DNA from: Deltaproteobacteria bacterium
Lineage (GTDB): Bacteria > Desulfobacterota_B > Binatia > UBA9968
Direction: 5' to 3'
Length of the DNA stretch: 24,683 nucleotides
Assembly (NCBI GenBank): GCA_016193385.1
Contig: JACPSF010000151.1
Span: 1 to 24,683, forward strand
This document shows, piece after piece, positions 1 through 15,214 of the stretch (positions are counted from its first letter, which is position 1; each line of letters opens with the position of its first letter). The notes below the pieces were generated by a model. It was not told the DNA's origin and did no database searches. It saw only the letters and a list, made by a program, of their open reading frames with translations. The translations under genes and the position numbers were made by a program.

Positions 1-1399
1 GTCTCATTAGGGAATCTCGAATGTCTCGCACGTCGACGAATTCATTTCTCAATCTGTCTTCCAAATCTTCTTGCGGCAGATCGTTCCCGGAAATGGAGTT
101 GCGCATTCTATTGAGCCGCTTGCGAAAATCCTCCACATCCAGCCAAAAGTCGTCAATGTCGAGTTCCCGGCGCCATTGCTTCCTGCCGCTCTTTCCTTCC
201 ACCTGAATCGGCGGGTTCAAAATCATCTTTGCCAACAGGCGCCAGTTTCTTCTGGGGATATCGCGGGCCTCGGCGCCAGTAAGGCGAAGCGGTTCGATAT
301 CGTTCCTGCCCTCGCTGCGAAGAGTCAGCCGTCCCGACCTGCGGCCATTCCTATTCTTGATTATGATCCTCAACCGTTCCCGCTGGCCGCGTTCCTCGAA
401 GCTCAACCTCAGCTCCTCGGGAGCGTTAATAGCCAACTCCTTCTGCTTTGCCCAATCGTTATCCTCTCCCTCCTCCGGATCACCAGGAGGATTGGAGTCA
501 TTCACCTTTCCTGTCTCAAGCTGTCTCGGTCGGATTCCGCGGAAATAGGGCTTAAGAAACTGCCCTCGCTTCGGGAGGCAGATGATCGCTTCCGTATTAA
601 GCGGCTCCCGGTCTTTCCCAAGCAACGCCTGCTCGGTCAGATTCGCGGAGCCCAGAATGACGTGCCGGTCGAACTCTAGACACTTCGCATGGAGATCCCA
701 GCCCGCGTGAACCATCCTCGCATCCCAAACTCTAACCTCGGCCTCTTGTTCCGTGCCAGCGATGGATGCGACTGCTCGATCCGAGCAGAAAGGCGCGCAA
801 CCGAATTCCAATCGATCTTCATCCAAACCGAGCCGGTGCTCGAGGACGTACGCGACGGGAGCCCTTTTTACATCAAGATCGGTCGGGCCATTGGCTCCGC
901 ACGTTACGGAAATTGTGACGGGAGCGAGTTTGATTCTCTGGCTTGCCGGCAAGTTACGGCTCCGACATAGATCAAAAAGCGCATATCGCGGCAGCGCCAG
1001 CCGAAGGCGATCCCAGTGGCATATGGACTCCATCGTCTCTTGTTCTTCGTCGAGGTGGTAGCGAGTCAGGTTAAAGGAGCCAATCAACAGCTCACGACAC
1101 TCGCGCCCCTTCGTCTTCATCCATAATTTCGGATGGAACACAGGACACCGCTTCTTCCCAGCATGTACCACGGAGATAACCGTGCTTTTGCGGTAATGCT
1201 TGCCCAGATAGCCCGGAAATCGGTGTCGCATGATCTCATGACAAACCACGATCCTCGTGGTAGAGGGCACTTCATACCGCCGCAGCAGCGCGCACAGTAC
1301 CGTCTCGTCAAGCCCGTAGGTGGAAATGAAGATGCACTCCTCATCTCCCTTCTTTCGAAGGAAGAGTCTTATCGAGTCGTCAAACTTAGAAAACCTCAT
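1..1399 (-). CDS. Phospholipase D-like protein with two HKD-type motifs (C-terminus beyond left edge)
   Basis: This reading frame is open from an ATG at 1399 to the left edge, giving at least 466 codons without a stop. It contains two PLD-type active-site motifs. The first is HPK at residues 89-91 followed by GSFN at 107-110. The second is HAKCLEFD at 237-244 followed by GSAN at 250-253, a complete HxK(x)4D(x)nGSxN signature. The first motif lacks the Asp at the usual spacing. PLD-superfamily enzymes use the paired histidines to cleave phosphodiesters, either of lipids or of nucleic acids. No signal peptide or membrane segment is visible, so a cytoplasmic nuclease-like role is more likely than a lipase, but this is inference. 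After the second motif comes a charged region of about 200 residues that I do not recognise. The ATG overlaps the stop of the upstream 348-aa gene (ATGA), which implies coupled translation. Confidence 0.85.
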   Translation of the reverse strand, partial: MRFSKFDDSIRLFLRKKGDEECIFISTYGLDETVLCALLRRYEVPSTTRIVVCHEIMRHRFPGYLGKHYRKSTVISVVHAGKKRCPVFHPKLWMKTKGRECRELLIGSFNLTRYHLDEEQETMESICHWDRLRLALPRYALFDLCRSRNLPASQRIKLAPVTISVTCGANGPTDLDVKRAPVAYVLEHRLGLDEDRLEFGCAPFCSDRAVASIAGTEQEAEVRVWDARMVHAGWDLHAKCLEFDRHVILGSANLTEQALLGKDREPLNTEAIICLPKRGQFLKPYFRGIRPRQLETGKVNDSNPPGDPEEGEDNDWAKQKELAINAPEELRLSFEERGQRERLRIIIKNRNGRRSGRLTLRSEGRNDIEPLRLTGAEARDIPRRNWRLLAKMILNPPIQVEGKSGRKQWRRELDIDDFWLDVEDFRKRLNRMRNSISGNDLPQEDLEDRLRNEFVDVRDIRDSLMR

Positions 1400-2442
1400 C
1401 GGTACTCGGGTTTGAACGGCGGCACGGACCTGCAATACAGGTAGAAGAAGGTATAGAACCTGAACGTCCTTAGGATTCGTCGTCTCTCGCCCTTTTCATG
1501 AGTCACTTTGAAAGGAGGGCGGTCTGCCCGAAGATGTTCTCTGAAGCGATACCAAGTTACCGGAATCCGCTTGCGCTTCCCCTTGAGGATCGACCTCAAC
1601 AGGCGCACCCACTCGTTATGCCAGTCGTGCTTCGTCGCCTTACGCTTCTCGGCGGCCGGATCGATTATCCCGTACAGGCAGCGGAACAGCGCGTAGCAAA
1701 AGCAGCCCTTCCAGAGCCATTCATCAACCGAGGATTTGTCCCGGAGATAGCTTCGCAAAACCCGCGTGATTGCGGGCTCCGGGCCGTCTAGCTCGCCGTT
1801 CTCCTTCTCAAGCCTGTTGAGGATTGCCGCGAACTGTCTGGCGGGTGCCCCCATGGAGCTGCGCAGAGCCTTTCTCCAACCGTTAGTGTTGCGATGATTG
1901 AAAATGCCGAATTGGTATCCGTTGAACCTGCGGGTCTCTTTGCGAAGAAAACGGTGCAGCGGGCTCCCTTCGGATTCGCCGTCAGATATCTTCTGGTACA
2001 TGGACTCGTACAGCCTGAAAGTGCTGCGGGAGCGCGGCCCTCTATTGCCGAAGGAATAGCGGCTTCCCGTGTACATCCGGCGATGGATTCTCTCCAGGCC
2101 AGCCTCGACTCTGCGTCCTCTTGCCCTATCATCCCACTTCGCTTGAAAGTCGCGTGCGACCAGAAGCCACGGCCAATAGCGGACTCCGATGACGAGTTGC
2201 GGAAACAAATTGCTGGAGATCTCAGAGACTCTGAGGAGTTCAGCGACCCGAATCGGATCGCTGACGTTAATCGGCCTTCTCATCGCCTCGAACTTTACCT
2301 CGCTCATGTCGAGGACGTTTGCTGAGCCGAGTCCAATGTGCTGCTTCATGCGGAAATATGTCGGTTCAGCACTTCTAGTACCCTGACCGCATGGATAGTA
2401 TTCATTTGTATTTCGACCCATCCTACGGTTCGATAAACTCAC
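1396..2442 (-). CDS. Hypothetical protein, partner of the PLD-like gene
   Basis: An open frame of 348 codons from GTG at 2442; ATG codons at 2421, 2349 and 2307 are alternative starts. None has a convincing Shine-Dalgarno sequence, so the N-terminus is uncertain. The protein is basic and rich in Arg, Trp and Tyr. Examples are a hydrophobic patch around RYWPWLLVARDF and a Cys/aromatic-rich stretch WLWKGCFCYALF. It has no signal peptide and no recognisable catalytic motif. I cannot assign a family. The arrangement, an unknown protein immediately before a PLD-like protein, recalls DUF6361/PLD pairs seen in accessory islands, but I cannot demonstrate homology. Its TGA overlaps the ATG of the PLD-like gene by four bases, so the two are almost certainly one operon and may form a complex. 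Confidence 0.75.
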   Translation of the reverse strand: MSLSNRRMGRNTNEYYPCGQGTRSAEPTYFRMKQHIGLGSANVLDMSEVKFEAMRRPINVSDPIRVAELLRVSEISSNLFPQLVIGVRYWPWLLVARDFQAKWDDRARGRRVEAGLERIHRRMYTGSRYSFGNRGPRSRSTFRLYESMYQKISDGESEGSPLHRFLRKETRRFNGYQFGIFNHRNTNGWRKALRSSMGAPARQFAAILNRLEKENGELDGPEPAITRVLRSYLRDKSSVDEWLWKGCFCYALFRCLYGIIDPAAEKRKATKHDWHNEWVRLLRSILKGKRKRIPVTWYRFREHLRADRPPFKVTHEKGERRRILRTFRFYTFFYLYCRSVPPFKPEYR

Positions 2443-2570
2443 CGTCCCGAGGAAGATCGAGGGACAGCCAGGTCATTTAAAAGCGTCCTTACCGCAACCG
2501 CTGGCAAATGTCCATCCCTGCCCTAGAACCGCCCGCTAGTGTAGTGCGTCCAACACTTCTTTACATATTC

Positions 2571-2601
2571 CGTTCATCCTGAGCTCGTCGAAGGATGAAC
2601 G
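2571..2601. repeat. REP-like hairpin A1
   Basis: A perfect 10-bp stem (CGTTCATCCT / AGGATGAACG) closes an 11-nt loop GAGCTCGTCGA. The loop core is shared with the other three REP copies in the window. Confidence 0.75.
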
Positions 2602-2615
2602 ATATCAGTCAGTTC

Positions 2616-2645
2616 GGTTCATGGTTCGACGGGCTCACCACGAAC
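2616..2645. repeat. REP-like hairpin A2
   Basis: The stem GTTCATGGT / ACCACGAAC has one G-T type mismatch and closes the loop TCGACGGGCTC. That loop is the inverted form of GAGCCCGTCGA, so A1 and A2 form a head-to-head pair. Read on the minus strand it encodes the VRGEPVEP-like peptide typical of spurious ORFs over such repeats. Confidence 0.7.
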
Positions 2646-2680
2646 GGGCCTGTCAAGGAATTTATGACGCACTACACTAG

Positions 2681-3007
2681 TTGACATAACACTACCCATC
2701 GAATACTCTCCGCCCCAAAATGGCGATCGGGGACCGTTCTGCTCTCTCAGGCACTTTCCCTTGGCCCCTAAAGGGCGTGGGCACGTGGTCGTCGGGGTGA
2801 TTTGGGCGTTCTCAGTGGCCCCGCCTGAAAAGGAAATTCTTATCACTTGTCTCGGCAAAAAAAATGGGTACGATGTTCGTTAGAAAACAATTGTCGAAGA
2901 GCACTGCCTCGTCGAGGCTGAGGCCTTGAATAAAAGATTTGTCGAAAATGGCGATTGGTCCCATTCCCTAACACCTGTTTGCTACCGCAGCAAAATTGTT
3001 TCTGATG
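2681..3007. other. Intergenic region, no gene seen
   Basis: Between the REP-pair element and the end of the NDT-like gene there are 327 bases with no credible coding frame, RNA gene or strong terminator. The only open frame crossing it on the minus strand runs into the REP element and is judged spurious. The sequence becomes A/T-richer towards 3007. Confidence 0.5.
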
Positions 3008-3925
3008 TTAAACTGCGCCCGGAATAGTCGCTTTGATTCTATCGGCAAGCTGCGTCCTCAAACCGCCAGGTTCTTTCCAAACAATGTGATTATACTGCCG
3101 GGTGTCGAAATGAACGTTGTCCAAATCGTCCTCTCGGCAGGTCCAAATCACGGGACGCCCTAACCCCATAGCGAAGCCCGCCTCGAAATAAACTCCCGCA
3201 CGCTGCAAGGTAACATCAGCCACGATAAACTGGCAGGCGCGAATCTCAGCTACAATCTTGTCACAAATTTTTTCGTTGTGGTGGACGCGGTCGATTCTCA
3301 CCGGTTCCATTTTGCAGTCGTTTTTCAAAGCCAAATACAAGCCTTGGTCGTAAGCTTCATTCAAAGATTCATCAAATGACATAGCAATAAAGCATTTTCC
3401 TGGCGTACCCTGTCCAGTTGCAGCTTCCTCAAATCGTTCCCAAGTCTTCGGAGTAAGTTGGAATAAGGGACGGAATTTCTGGTTTACATAATCTGCTTCT
3501 AAGAGAAAATCCACGAGATATGCAAACTCGACTTCTGAGCCAGCATCAATGAGTGGCCAGTCCAATTTCGAATCCAATTGAATACGGCCCCCCGGCTGAA
3601 AATCAGAGCGGGTGGCAAGCAAATCCAGAAGCCTTGCGGTTTTTTGGGAGAAAGGCGTGTTTTTATGCGACTGCGCGAATTGTCGCCAGGTGTGACTAGC
3701 TACGTTGAACAGTGGGCTCTGCTTCTTCGCTTGACGGATGTGACATATAAGATAGGGAATTAATTCCTTATCGCCAGGTTTGGACCGTAGTCCAGAAAGA
3801 GCGTTTTCCGTAATTTCGAACGTGGTACATAAGACGCACTCGACAGCCTTGCCGTCTATACCCATGGGACGCTCACGAACGGTAGCATCGGAATTACACA
3901 ACGGACACTTTTCTTTATCCGGCAT
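3008..3925 (-). CDS. Zinc-ribbon protein with C-terminal nucleoside 2-deoxyribosyltransferase-like domain
   Basis: A 305-aa protein. The N-terminus has two CxxC knuckles (C7-C10 and C30-C33), consistent with a zinc ribbon. An unassigned middle follows (about 50-175). From about residue 178 there is a Rossmann-like domain of the nucleoside 2-deoxyribosyltransferase/TIR-like group: CFIAMSFDES, then IVADVTLQRAGVYFEAGFAMGLGRPVIW and HFDTRQYNHIVW-type segments (first 20 residues at most quoted per motif: IVADVTLQR, VYFEAGFAMGLGRPV). E248 in YFEAG matches the family's catalytic Glu. Such domains cleave N-glycosidic bonds or bind nucleotides and occur in antiviral proteins; a defence or nucleotide-sensing role here is inference. 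The start has an AAGGAG six to seven bases upstream. Base use is visibly more A/T-rich than the flanking core genes, suggesting acquisition. It stands alone, with no partner in phase. Confidence 0.8.
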   Translation of the reverse strand: MPDKEKCPLCNSDATVRERPMGIDGKAVECVLCTTFEITENALSGLRSKPGDKELIPYLICHIRQAKKQSPLFNVASHTWRQFAQSHKNTPFSQKTARLLDLLATRSDFQPGGRIQLDSKLDWPLIDAGSEVEFAYLVDFLLEADYVNQKFRPLFQLTPKTWERFEEAATGQGTPGKCFIAMSFDESLNEAYDQGLYLALKNDCKMEPVRIDRVHHNEKICDKIVAEIRACQFIVADVTLQRAGVYFEAGFAMGLGRPVIWTCREDDLDNVHFDTRQYNHIVWKEPGGLRTQLADRIKATIPGAV

Positions 3926-4073
3926 ATTCGCTCCTTGATTTCCGCCCGAGTTTTGATAGATTCCCCGTTACACCTGTGTTGCCAATTTACATGCAATTCC
4001 TACAAAAATCTCACGCTCGCTGCAATCGCTGACTTATCACTTATCACTAACAACAGGATCGCGGAAACAAACC

Positions 4074-4334
4074 TCAGCCTCTGCTTGCTACCGCCTCCTT
4101 TCTCAACCTCTTTTTAAGCTCCCCTTCCGTCACCCGGTACTTGAAGGCCTTGCGGCCATCGATGAAGAGAACCGGCACTTCACTGCCGAATTCTTCCTTA
4201 AGCCTCGGCTCCCCGTCCACATCGATCTCTTCCATCTCGAGAGGAAGCTCACCGGCCACCCGCCCGATGACTCCTTTCATCTCCTCGCAGAGGCAGCAGC
4301 CCTGTCTCGTGTAGAGCGTGAGCCGCCGGGTCAC
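4074..4334 (-). CDS. Glutaredoxin-like thiol-disulfide protein
   Basis: An 86-aa protein of the small glutaredoxin-like (DUF836 type) group. It opens with a beta strand LTLYTRQG followed by the redox motif C13-C-L-C16. It then has the EVPVLFIDG segment, whose Pro corresponds to the cis-proline of the thioredoxin fold. It probably reduces a disulfide in the cytoplasm; the partner is unknown. The start is GTG at 4334, and its GTGA overlaps the TGA of the upstream AsmA-like gene, so it is the second gene of that operon and translationally coupled. This coupling hints at a role tied to the envelope protein, although glutaredoxin-like genes are found beside many unrelated genes. Confidence 0.85.
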   Translation of the reverse strand: MTRRLTLYTRQGCCLCEEMKGVIGRVAGELPLEMEEIDVDGEPRLKEEFGSEVPVLFIDGRKAFKYRVTEGELKKRLRKEAVASRG

Positions 4335-7300
4335 TTCTTCTCATCTCCGGAAAGGCCGATGAGGCTCTTGGGGATTTCCAACGCGCCGAAAAAGAATTCC
4401 GATAGGGTGCTCAGCGGCGCCGGGATGACGATGGGATTATCAAGAGAGCCGCTGACACGGAAGCTGGCAACCAGAAAAGAGTCTTTGATGGCCGCCAACC
4501 CCCGCCCGATGAGCGGGATGTAACTCACGGCCGAGCTGATTCTGGGGAACGGGCGCACGGCCACGACGAAATCCACGGACCCTTCAGCCCCATCCACCGT
4601 CCCTGCCCCGGTCAGACGAAGATCGTCGCTGTCGACCAGGAGGTTTGGGGTCGAGTAGACTCCGCGCGACACTTTGAAATCCCCGCTGATGCGCCGAAAG
4701 CGGATCCCTTCCTGGTTGATATCGGGCATCTCCAGGGAAAACCAACGGGAGAGATCGATCAGACTGAGGATGCGGACCAGGACGCGCAGCCGTCGCAGCA
4801 CCCCGTCCTCAATTTCGAGATGGAAGACGCCGTTGAGACTTCTCTTCCTTTCCGCGCCTGTCTTTCCGGCTGCGTCGAGCTGGCCTGAGATCCGGATCTT
4901 TCCGGTGACGTCGTTCGTCGCCATATCGAACCAGCTTAGAAATCCCCTAACCGGAACGCCCTGAACCTTGGACTCGACGGCAAAGCTCAATTTGTCCGGG
5001 CGGTCGGTGAAGGATCCAGAGCCCTGTACGGTCCCTCCCAGGGACCGAGCAGAGAAGCTATTCAGACGCCAGGTCCTTTTGTCTAACGCCAAATCGCTCT
5101 GAAGCTCGGAAAATTCAAAGTGTTCAAATTTGCCCTTTTTGATGCTGACCCGCCCTTTCGCCTGCAATCGGTCGTACCAATCGCTCGAAGACTCGTCGCC
5201 CTGCGGGAAAAGAACGGCCAGGTCCATCTCCGGGGAGTTCAAGGTGAAAACCAACTGAGGTCTCTCTGCGTGCCTCCATTGACCCCGAAACTCGAAAGCC
5301 GATCCCGCCAGTCGTCCCTTGAGACCCTGGAAATCAATATCCGCGCCGTCGAACCTGAGCCGGCCACTAACGTCGCGCGCTCGTTGACTGAGAAAGGGAA
5401 GCTCAACCCCGGCCAGCTCCAAGGTGCCGCTGACCCTTCTGTCCTCAGGGGAATTGAAGGAGCCTTGATAGCGGACCGTCCCGCGAACCGTCCCCGGTTC
5501 CTCGGGTGATCCCGAAGCCAGGAGTATCCGGCTGACTACGCCCGCCTTGATCCCAGAGGATTCGAACACGAGATCGAATGACGGCCTTTCCGTCATGTAA
5601 CGGCTCAAGCTTCCGCTCAACCGCAGTGGCGATCCGGCCAAAAGCCCACTTAGCTTTTCCAGGCGAATTTCTTTGGGGGAAAAGCTGAGGCCTCCCTTGA
5701 TCTGAGCAAGGGAAAGCTCCCCTACCCGAAGGAGAGCATTATCCAGCGCCAGCCGACCCTCGGCATAAGTGGGAGAAGCCGCGCTCTGGCGCAGAAAAAC
5801 CTCGAAAGTTCCCCGGCCGCTCAGCTCTTTAAGCTGCGCACCGATCTGCGCCAGAGGAGGAGGCGTAAGCCTCGACTTTAACAGCGCGCGCAGCTCTCCG
5901 AGGTCAAGCTCTCCGCGCGCGCGAGCCTCCCAGTCGGCTGACCCGGAAGCCAACCCTCGGTAAACCCCATTGACCTCCGTCATCCGGGAATTCCCAAATG
6001 TCCCTCGGAGCCCCTTGTAAGAGATCACTCCCTTTTCGAGGACGACCCTGCCGTTTACTCCCCGCCAGGGAAGCTCGCCTTCACCTGGGAGCTGGCCGCC
6101 GACGTCCTGCAACTCAGCCTCGACCCAAATCAGGCTGGGATCGGAAAACCGCCGGATCTCTGACAGCCGGCCGGCGACTCCAGCCCTCGCCAGACTGATC
6201 TCGCCCCGGCGCACTGCCCCAACCAGCCTATCCAAGGTCGGCGAGTCTAAAACCCGCAAAGGGAAATACCTGCGCGCCTTCACGACGGGCAGGAAAGGAC
6301 TGCTCAGTTGAAGGTTCAGTTCTGGATCATCTTCCTGCAAGCGGCTTACGCTACCTCGCAGTGCCAGGCTGATATCTTCGGAGTGCCAATCCAAGCGCAG
6401 CAGACGAATCTCTTGAGGCGTCCACTCCATCTCCAGCTCTACCCGCACATTCCCTGGCGCCACCTCACCCGGAAAAATTTGCGGCGCATCGAAACCGAGC
6501 TGTCCGAATTCGATGGCCCCTTTCACCTGGACTTGCTGCGCCAAGCTCCCCCGCCAACGCAAGCGTGATCCGACCGTGCCCCGCATGGCGCGGAGCGGAA
6601 GCCGATGACCGTAATAATCCCAAACCAGGCCGGCGGACAGACCTTCAATTTGAATCTCGGCATCCAGCCAGGTCTGTCGGAGCGTCGCCTCTCCTTGCGG
6701 GAGAACCATCTTGCCCTGAGACGCCAGCCGCGCTTGCCGCCCGTCCCTCTCGACAGTCGCCTTGAGTGTAAACTCCAAGGCTGGCCCGAGTCCTGCGGCG
6801 GCCACGCCTCGAACAGCTCTACCGAGGTCGGGTGAGAGCGAATTCTTCGCGGGAGGCGGACGAAGGGTCAAATCGATTTCCCGGAAGTGGGTCGGTATCG
6901 GGGCGCCACCCTCCGACTCCTCGGAAAAGACCAGGTCGCCCTTTTCAATCTTAATTTGGTGTAAATCGAGGGTGAACGGACCTCCCTGCTGTTCTGGGGT
7001 CAGGGGAAGGAGGAGCAAATTGAGCAGGCGAATCTCGCCCTTCCCATCGCGGGTGAGTTTAAACGTCGGCCGTTGAAAGCGGATCTCGTAAAAGTCCAGC
7101 CTCCGCTCGAACAGGGGCATCAGCGCGACTCGGACGAGAACCCGCTCGGAGGTGATGACGGGACGGCCCGTCTCGGGCTCCAGCAGGGCGAAGTCGCGAA
7201 ACGAGATCCCGGTCACTTTTCCCAAGCGGACATCCGCCTGCCCAATGCTTGCCTTCAACCGTGTGCGCTTTTCCAATTCGCTCAGAAGAAAACGGCGAAA

Positions 7301-14984: not shown

Positions 14985-15010
14985 CGCTTGATTCTGCTGA
15001 AAAAGGGCTT

Positions 15011-15037
15011 TTCATGCTTCGACTGGCTCAGCATGAA
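15011..15037. repeat. REP-like hairpin B1
   Basis: A perfect 8-bp stem TTCATGCT / AGCATGAA closes the 11-nt loop TCGACTGGCTC, which is the inverted form of GAGCCAGTCGA. Confidence 0.7.
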
Positions 15038-15066
15038 CGGAAAATCGTTAACGTTATCAACCACCT

Positions 15067-15100
15067 CCGTTCGCCCTGAGCTACGTCGAAGGGTGAACGG
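15067..15100. repeat. REP-like hairpin B2
   Basis: An 11-bp stem CCGTTCGCCCT / AGGGTGAACGG with one G-T type mismatch closes the loop GAGCTACGTCGA. It is head-to-head with B1, as A1 is with A2. Confidence 0.75.
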
Positions 15101-15214
15101 GGGTTTTTCAGCAGAATCATCGCTTCAGGAATGACCCCGCTGAGCAGCTAAGGCGCGGGCCGCGAGAGAGGCCGCGGGAGCCTCGATCCTCCGTCCGCGA
15201 ACCGGCAGAGCCTT

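Follow-up and report, generated by a model that had tools for sequence, protein, structure and literature searches.

Among described defence systems, the closest to the locus reported here is Azaca, whose components we take to be the proteins represented in PADLOC by the models ZacA, ZacB and ZacC, and which, together with its protection against phage, is said to have been reported by Millman in 2022. In the available portion of one article ZacC is named as the helicase of Azaca and placed in SF2_SNF2 (PMC10925250), and the corresponding portion of its journal version lists ZacC only (PMC12278908). A PLD-like domain is entered for Azaca in the accessible part of another source (PMC10952713), and the mechanism is entered as unknown in that of a further one (PMC12926258); no account of how Azaca works was found in the literature searched.

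Reference loci were collected with a DUF6361 consensus as the probe, which gave 45 plasmid records and one record from a phage collection, and eight of the 45 plasmid records were examined as Azaca references. All eight have first a DUF6361 gene, then a PLD-type gene and then a helicase gene, with all three on the same strand; seven carry a PLD annotation for the second gene, and in the eighth (L026) the product of that gene aligns as ZacB and has the HPK motif. PADLOC was run on eight reference proteins: those of L023 and L028, six in number, reach 282-1122 bits with ZacA, ZacB and ZacC, the DUF6361 proteins of L025 and L029 are likewise identified as ZacA, and the full-length matches of the reference ZacB proteins amount to 401-594 bits. 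Individual references have irregularities: the DUF6361 gene of L030 is split and was excluded from the ZacA alignment, that of L029 is short, and the annotated PLD gene of L025 lacks the first PLD motif.

The window analysed here is the whole of a contig of 24,683 bases, and this assembly contains nothing to the left of base 1. Two genes, which we call A and B, occupy its first 2.4 kb on the minus strand, with A upstream of B. As the first-pass annotation had observed, the two reading frames overlap, the ATGA at 1399-1396 being common to the stop of A and the ATG of B. Gene A, the first gene of the operon, was initially read as a protein of 348 aa, and its reading frame is indeed open upstream to a GTG at 2442. 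The relatives P0003, P0004, P0008 and P0009 measure 317, 316, 308 and 314 aa, and their N-termini fall close to residue 32 of that longer reading; for this reason the start is placed at 2349, so that A probably spans 1396..2349 and encodes 317 aa. Gene B (2..1399) runs off the end of the contig; 466 aa are readable, and with relatives of 512-513 residues about 47 residues would lie beyond the contig end. Relatives of A and of B cover 87-100% of each query.

B belongs to the PLD family and is ZacB-like. PLDc_2 (Pfam) is found in B above the cut-off (31.4 vs 27 bits) and just under it in the relatives P0006 (25.5) and the B of locus L001 described below (25.6). Both active-site motifs noted at first reading are present: 1) HPK at 1127..1135 (minus strand, residues 89-91, in HPKLWMKT), which lacks the usual Asp and is accompanied by SFNLT at 1064-1078 (minus strand, residues 108-112), and 2) HAK at 683..691 (minus strand, residues 237-239, in HAKCLEFD), where Asp244 is present and SANLT follows at 635-649 (minus strand, residues 251-255). 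The first motif is without Asp in all three B-family sequences, and the Asp of the second is kept in two of the three, with Gln in the B of L001. B is predicted to be a single-chain, two-motif nuclease of PLD fold. A search of B against PDB sequences gave nothing useful, and its AlphaFold model (mean pLDDT 33.3) is too poor for a fold search, as is that of A (51.6).

The suggestion that the PLD protein is of a type found in defence systems was borne out by PADLOC, in which ZacB is the best match of B (9.1e-9, the best stretch covering residues 233-393 only). Compared as profiles, the N-terminal half of B matches ZacB at 1.3e-6 over 41 columns and the C-terminal half at 4.6e-6 over 44 columns, and none of 150 column shuffles reaches either score. 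These alignments sit around the PLD motifs, which points to a shared PLD core rather than to ZacB identity. The absence of Asp from HPK is found as well in all seven ZacB proteins that have the first motif. Rankings were made in a test set of 207 proteins, from which duplicates (L002, L003, L011, L012) and any ORF that was shorter than 150 aa or overlapped a longer one had been omitted. With a model of B, the first proteins after B itself and the B of L001 are ZacB-like proteins from plasmids (L015 at 3e-6, L016 and L020). A model of ZacB matches PLD proteins broadly, and the PLD proteins of L010, L004 and L005 outrank B, with the B of L001 lower still. NgoFVII-type restriction endonucleases share the PLD fold, and B has a weak match to PF09565 (E 0.16), but its 11.7 bits lie below the cut-off of 23.8.

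The neighbourhood survey that had been proposed as a check on whether the pair is conserved as a unit found the same two genes, with the same 4-base overlap, in the only other locus visible, where the pair lies inside a longer operon. This locus, L001, is a contig of 4,690 bases from an Elusimicrobia MAG, and everything said here of genes beyond B comes from this one contig, which is possibly mis-binned. Its four genes lie on the same strand: A (2-949, truncated by the start of the contig), B (946-2484, overlapping A by ATGA at 946-949), a compact SF2 helicase (2481-4133, overlapping B by GTGA, with a start chosen by us) and, 3 bases further on, a nuclease-like gene (4137-4688, cut by the contig end). 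The product of the last matches PADLOC mREase_II at 6.7e-34 and, weakly, a zinc ribbon (DZR_2, 0.0037, under the cut-off) and DUF6998; it is a candidate PD-(D/E)XK nuclease.

Because a helicase and a nuclease-like gene come after B in L001, the pair of the window probably makes up the left portion of an operon of three or four genes rather than a two-gene system. The first-pass annotation had suggested a compact two-gene system; the window ends before the point at which the further genes would appear, and its own operon would continue to a helicase. A self-sufficient PLD module of two genes, with the helicase of L001 as a separate neighbour, would be in keeping with plasmid pairs of ZacA-like and ZacB-like genes that have no annotated helicase adjoining them (L013, L014 and L021; PLSDB annotation is incomplete). 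We nevertheless consider it quite improbable: the helicase of L001 overlaps B by GTGA and has ZacC as its best match, and the plasmid pairs consist of larger proteins, the first of which has no significant match to A.

The helicase of L001 and B are similar to ZacC and ZacB, respectively. In PADLOC the best match of the helicase is ZacC (4e-16, 56.8 bits), with DrmD (1.4e-14, 51.3 bits) and BrxHII (7.3e-14, 48.7 bits) nearly equal to it and DrmA (4e-10) behind ZacC and DrmD; the ZacC, DrmD and BrxHII matches involve mainly about 66-70 C-terminal residues. With a model of ZacC, the helicase is the first match in the 207 proteins that is not itself a ZacC (9.3e-15). Its N-terminus is also similar: the protein starts TRRFMVMLPVGMGKT, and five ZacC proteins have (T/R/A)R(R/Q)FLVADEVGLGKT, with TRRF in two of them; the start of the L001 protein aligns with the Walker A region of ZacC. 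The combination of a PLD protein with a SNF2-type helicase is likewise found in DISARM (DrmC and DrmD), and DrmD comes second in PADLOC for the helicase of L001. DISARM differs in that B reaches 24.8 bits against the NCBIfam DrmC cut-off of 133, and in that the four visible genes of L001 include no match to DrmB or a methyltransferase, both contigs ending close by.

The family of A is rare. A direct search of 5.8 billion proteins gave two relatives, and a profile search, which scored the 7,997 candidates with the most words in common, gave five at E ≤ 10 (P0003, P0004, P0008, P0009 and P0010). When 84,980 genomes were scanned with a single peptide pattern, ten stretches matched, of which one, L001, encodes a relative of A, and among 198 genomes drawn from the phylum Elusimicrobiota A is present in the genome of L001 only. 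At the limits of the searches made, no relatives of A were found in viral contigs, plasmids or phages and none of B in viral contigs or plasmids. In the same 198 genomes DUF6361 was found in none, a result that is uninformative, as control genomes were equally silent; a search for the ZacB family had matches in 28, which are not counted in favour of Azaca because they cover mostly the region of the second motif and many lie in frames of more than 1,000 aa.

The first protein had been described as having no recognisable domain and as not being a housekeeping protein, and both statements agree with the searches: A has no match at E ≤ 1 in Pfam, PADLOC or NCBIfam. A housekeeping identity is rejected, as no match was found in Pfam, NCBIfam, PADLOC or PDB sequences (best E in the PDB 0.42, to squalene synthase). 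Weak matches of single family members to DUF334 (0.0084), MiaE_2 (0.22), HamB (0.018) and ZorA (0.037) are regarded as chance hits. One of the six A-family members matches PADLOC CARF_HEPN_mCpol at 0.0062. The motif of HEPN proteins is R-x4-H, which occurs in three members; the HEPN reading was dropped because the motif is missing in P0008 and P0009. Conservation in the family extends to the C-terminus, and an N-terminal pattern, GSAN...DP...F...GVRYWP.LLVARD, is kept in all six sequences.

It is this N-terminal part that suggests a likely though unproven kinship of A with ZacA (DUF6361). The conserved stretch of A at 2146..2259 (minus strand, residues 31-68, DPIRV...LFP...GVRYWPWLLVARDF) aligns to the N-terminus of ZacA. 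A comparison of the two profiles gives a score of 24.5 over 58 columns near both N-termini, which none of 250 column shuffles reaches (maximum 21.5), and with the N-termini alone E is 0.0018, again with none of 250 shuffles as high; as a positive control, ZacA-like proteins from plasmids score 55.0 against ZacA (0 of 60 shuffles). The kinship falls short of proof in view of further results: 1) of seven controls run with A (four real alignments and three reversed), one, the alignment of B, exceeds the ZacA score (26.2, via a 13-column LGSAN match); 2) only P0008 stands out with a ZacA model, where it outranks all proteins other than ZacA and the ZacA-like ones and is equalled by 1 of 1,200 residue shuffles, while the other five members, the A of the window included, have at most 0.5 bits or are not listed, and the A of the window is equalled or exceeded by 251 of 1,200 shuffles; and 3) a broader ZacA model weakens even P0008 (4 of 1,200 shuffles). 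None of the six members matches PADLOC ZacA at E ≤ 10, in a search where weak matches can be filtered out, and none matches Pfam DUF6361. A has no significant match to the plasmid ZacA-like proteins, the score being reached in 57 of 200 shuffles; with the N-termini alone the count is 7 of 200, and a different region is paired.

We hold it moderately probable that an Azaca-like defence operon of the ZacA-ZacB-ZacC type begins with A and B and is truncated within B by the end of the contig. What agrees with Azaca is the gene order, the overlapping of the genes, an SF2 helicase in third place (seen in L001) and a PLD protein with HPK followed by HxK, the first motif lacking Asp. What differs is that A is not recognised as ZacA and that the proteins are shorter (A about 317 vs about 350-420 aa, B about 513 vs about 590-620 aa, the helicase of L001 550 vs about 1,000 or more aa), that L001 adds a nuclease-like gene, and that the window shows A and B only. 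A new system had been proposed for the pair; its kind looks known instead, because the layout matches that of ZacA-ZacB-ZacC, with strongly diverged proteins, and the locus is probably a diverged, compact operon of Azaca type with a role in defence. We would entertain only tentatively the idea that the pair, together with the compact helicase and the nuclease-like gene in fourth place, makes up a distinct DNA-restriction system of four genes and two nucleases, a sister of Azaca from which it would differ in a helicase of about half the length and in the added second nuclease. Another reading is a distinct helicase-PLD-nuclease defence system of Azaca-like layout, for which the PLD nuclease and the SNF2-type helicase, the latter possibly closer to DrmD of DISARM, would have been recruited separately, with A unrelated to ZacA. 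Such an origin would fit the position of A outside the ZacA models, in which one of six family members scores well, the DrmD score of the L001 helicase, almost as good as that of ZacC, the extra nuclease-like gene of L001 and genes shorter than those of Azaca; we regard it as unlikely in view of the gene order and coupled overlaps, which are those of Azaca, the shared HPK/HAK signature, the ZacC-like N-terminus of the helicase and the match between the N-terminal profiles of A and ZacA.

In an Azaca-like operon, the missing third gene of the window would encode a SNF2-type SF2 helicase or translocase, and, on the model of the Elusimicrobia locus, a fourth might encode a nuclease of restriction type. 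The gene overlap and the co-occurrence of A and B suggest that the two proteins form a complex, which the helicase might load onto invading DNA or drive along it, and recognition of foreign or replicating DNA would then license B to cut. PLD enzymes act by a two-His mechanism with a covalent phosphohistidine intermediate, and cleavage by B may proceed in this way. A would likely serve as a scaffold or gate, with B inactive until DNA is recognised; the complex, its DNA target and the gating by A are all conditional on this model. The first-pass annotation was right about the nuclease and defence flavour of the pair; an anti-phage function of the operon is inferred. A naturally occurring version whose A, B and C proteins are shorter could reveal which parts of Azaca are needed.

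Pairs of similar plan occur on plasmids. Ten records were taken from those with ZacA-like or ZacB-like matches (16 in one search and 18 in another); they come from varied bacteria and have a protein of 485-585 aa whose gene overlaps or abuts that of a PLD-type protein of 708-883 aa (L013 7992-11872, L014 7962-12147, L015 7974-12037, L016 7989-12106, L017 4436-8574, L018 4465-8556, L019 4415-8673, L020 4389-8436, L021 4310-8502 and L022 4199-8079). In the four scanned with PADLOC (L013-L016) the first protein has a weak match to the ZacA N-terminus and the second matches ZacB. They resemble the A-B pair in joining an uncharacterised first protein to an overlapping or abutting PLD protein, with HPK and HAK in the four aligned, and differ from it in the size of both proteins, in a first protein not significantly related to A and, in some, in having no annotated helicase adjoining. 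Those with no annotated helicase directly adjoining (L013, L014 and L021) may represent a helicase-free branch. Azaca, the plasmid pairs and the A-B family may share a plan in which an uncharacterised first protein is combined with a two-motif PLD protein, which is directly testable. A further ZacA-like/PLD pair (L031, 2626-5969, in the Elusimicrobiota genome G010) is preceded by an mREase_II-like gene. Its product resembles that of the gene after the helicase in L001 (30% over 100 residues, 2e-6), and for this reason mREase_II-like nucleases may be associated with such loci (two cases).

Beyond 4 kb the window contains mostly ordinary core genes, as far as can be judged by reading the ORFs alone, which would suit a pair engaged in DNA repair, lipid metabolism or another metabolic task, its PLD fold being incidental. 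A role outside defence is very improbable, given the rarity of the family, the helicase and restriction-like nuclease adjoining the pair in L001 and ZacB as the best PADLOC match of B. The gene beside the pair (3008-3925, minus strand) encodes a protein of 305 aa in which a Cys-rich N-terminal stretch is combined with an NDT/TIR-like domain at the C-terminus. It had been called NDT-like, and the match to PF05014 is of that kind, though at 27.7 bits it stays just under the Pfam cut-off of 28.8; with a match to the PADLOC TIR effector model at 1.8e-7, the gene is a candidate defence gene. Between it and the pair, where a mobile element had been noted, lies a MITE-like imperfect palindrome of 145 bases (2536-2680) with 30-base inverted ends (2536-2565 and 2651-2680); it contains no ORF of at least 80 aa. 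A second palindrome, with 35-base arms, is found in the window at 14989-15119.
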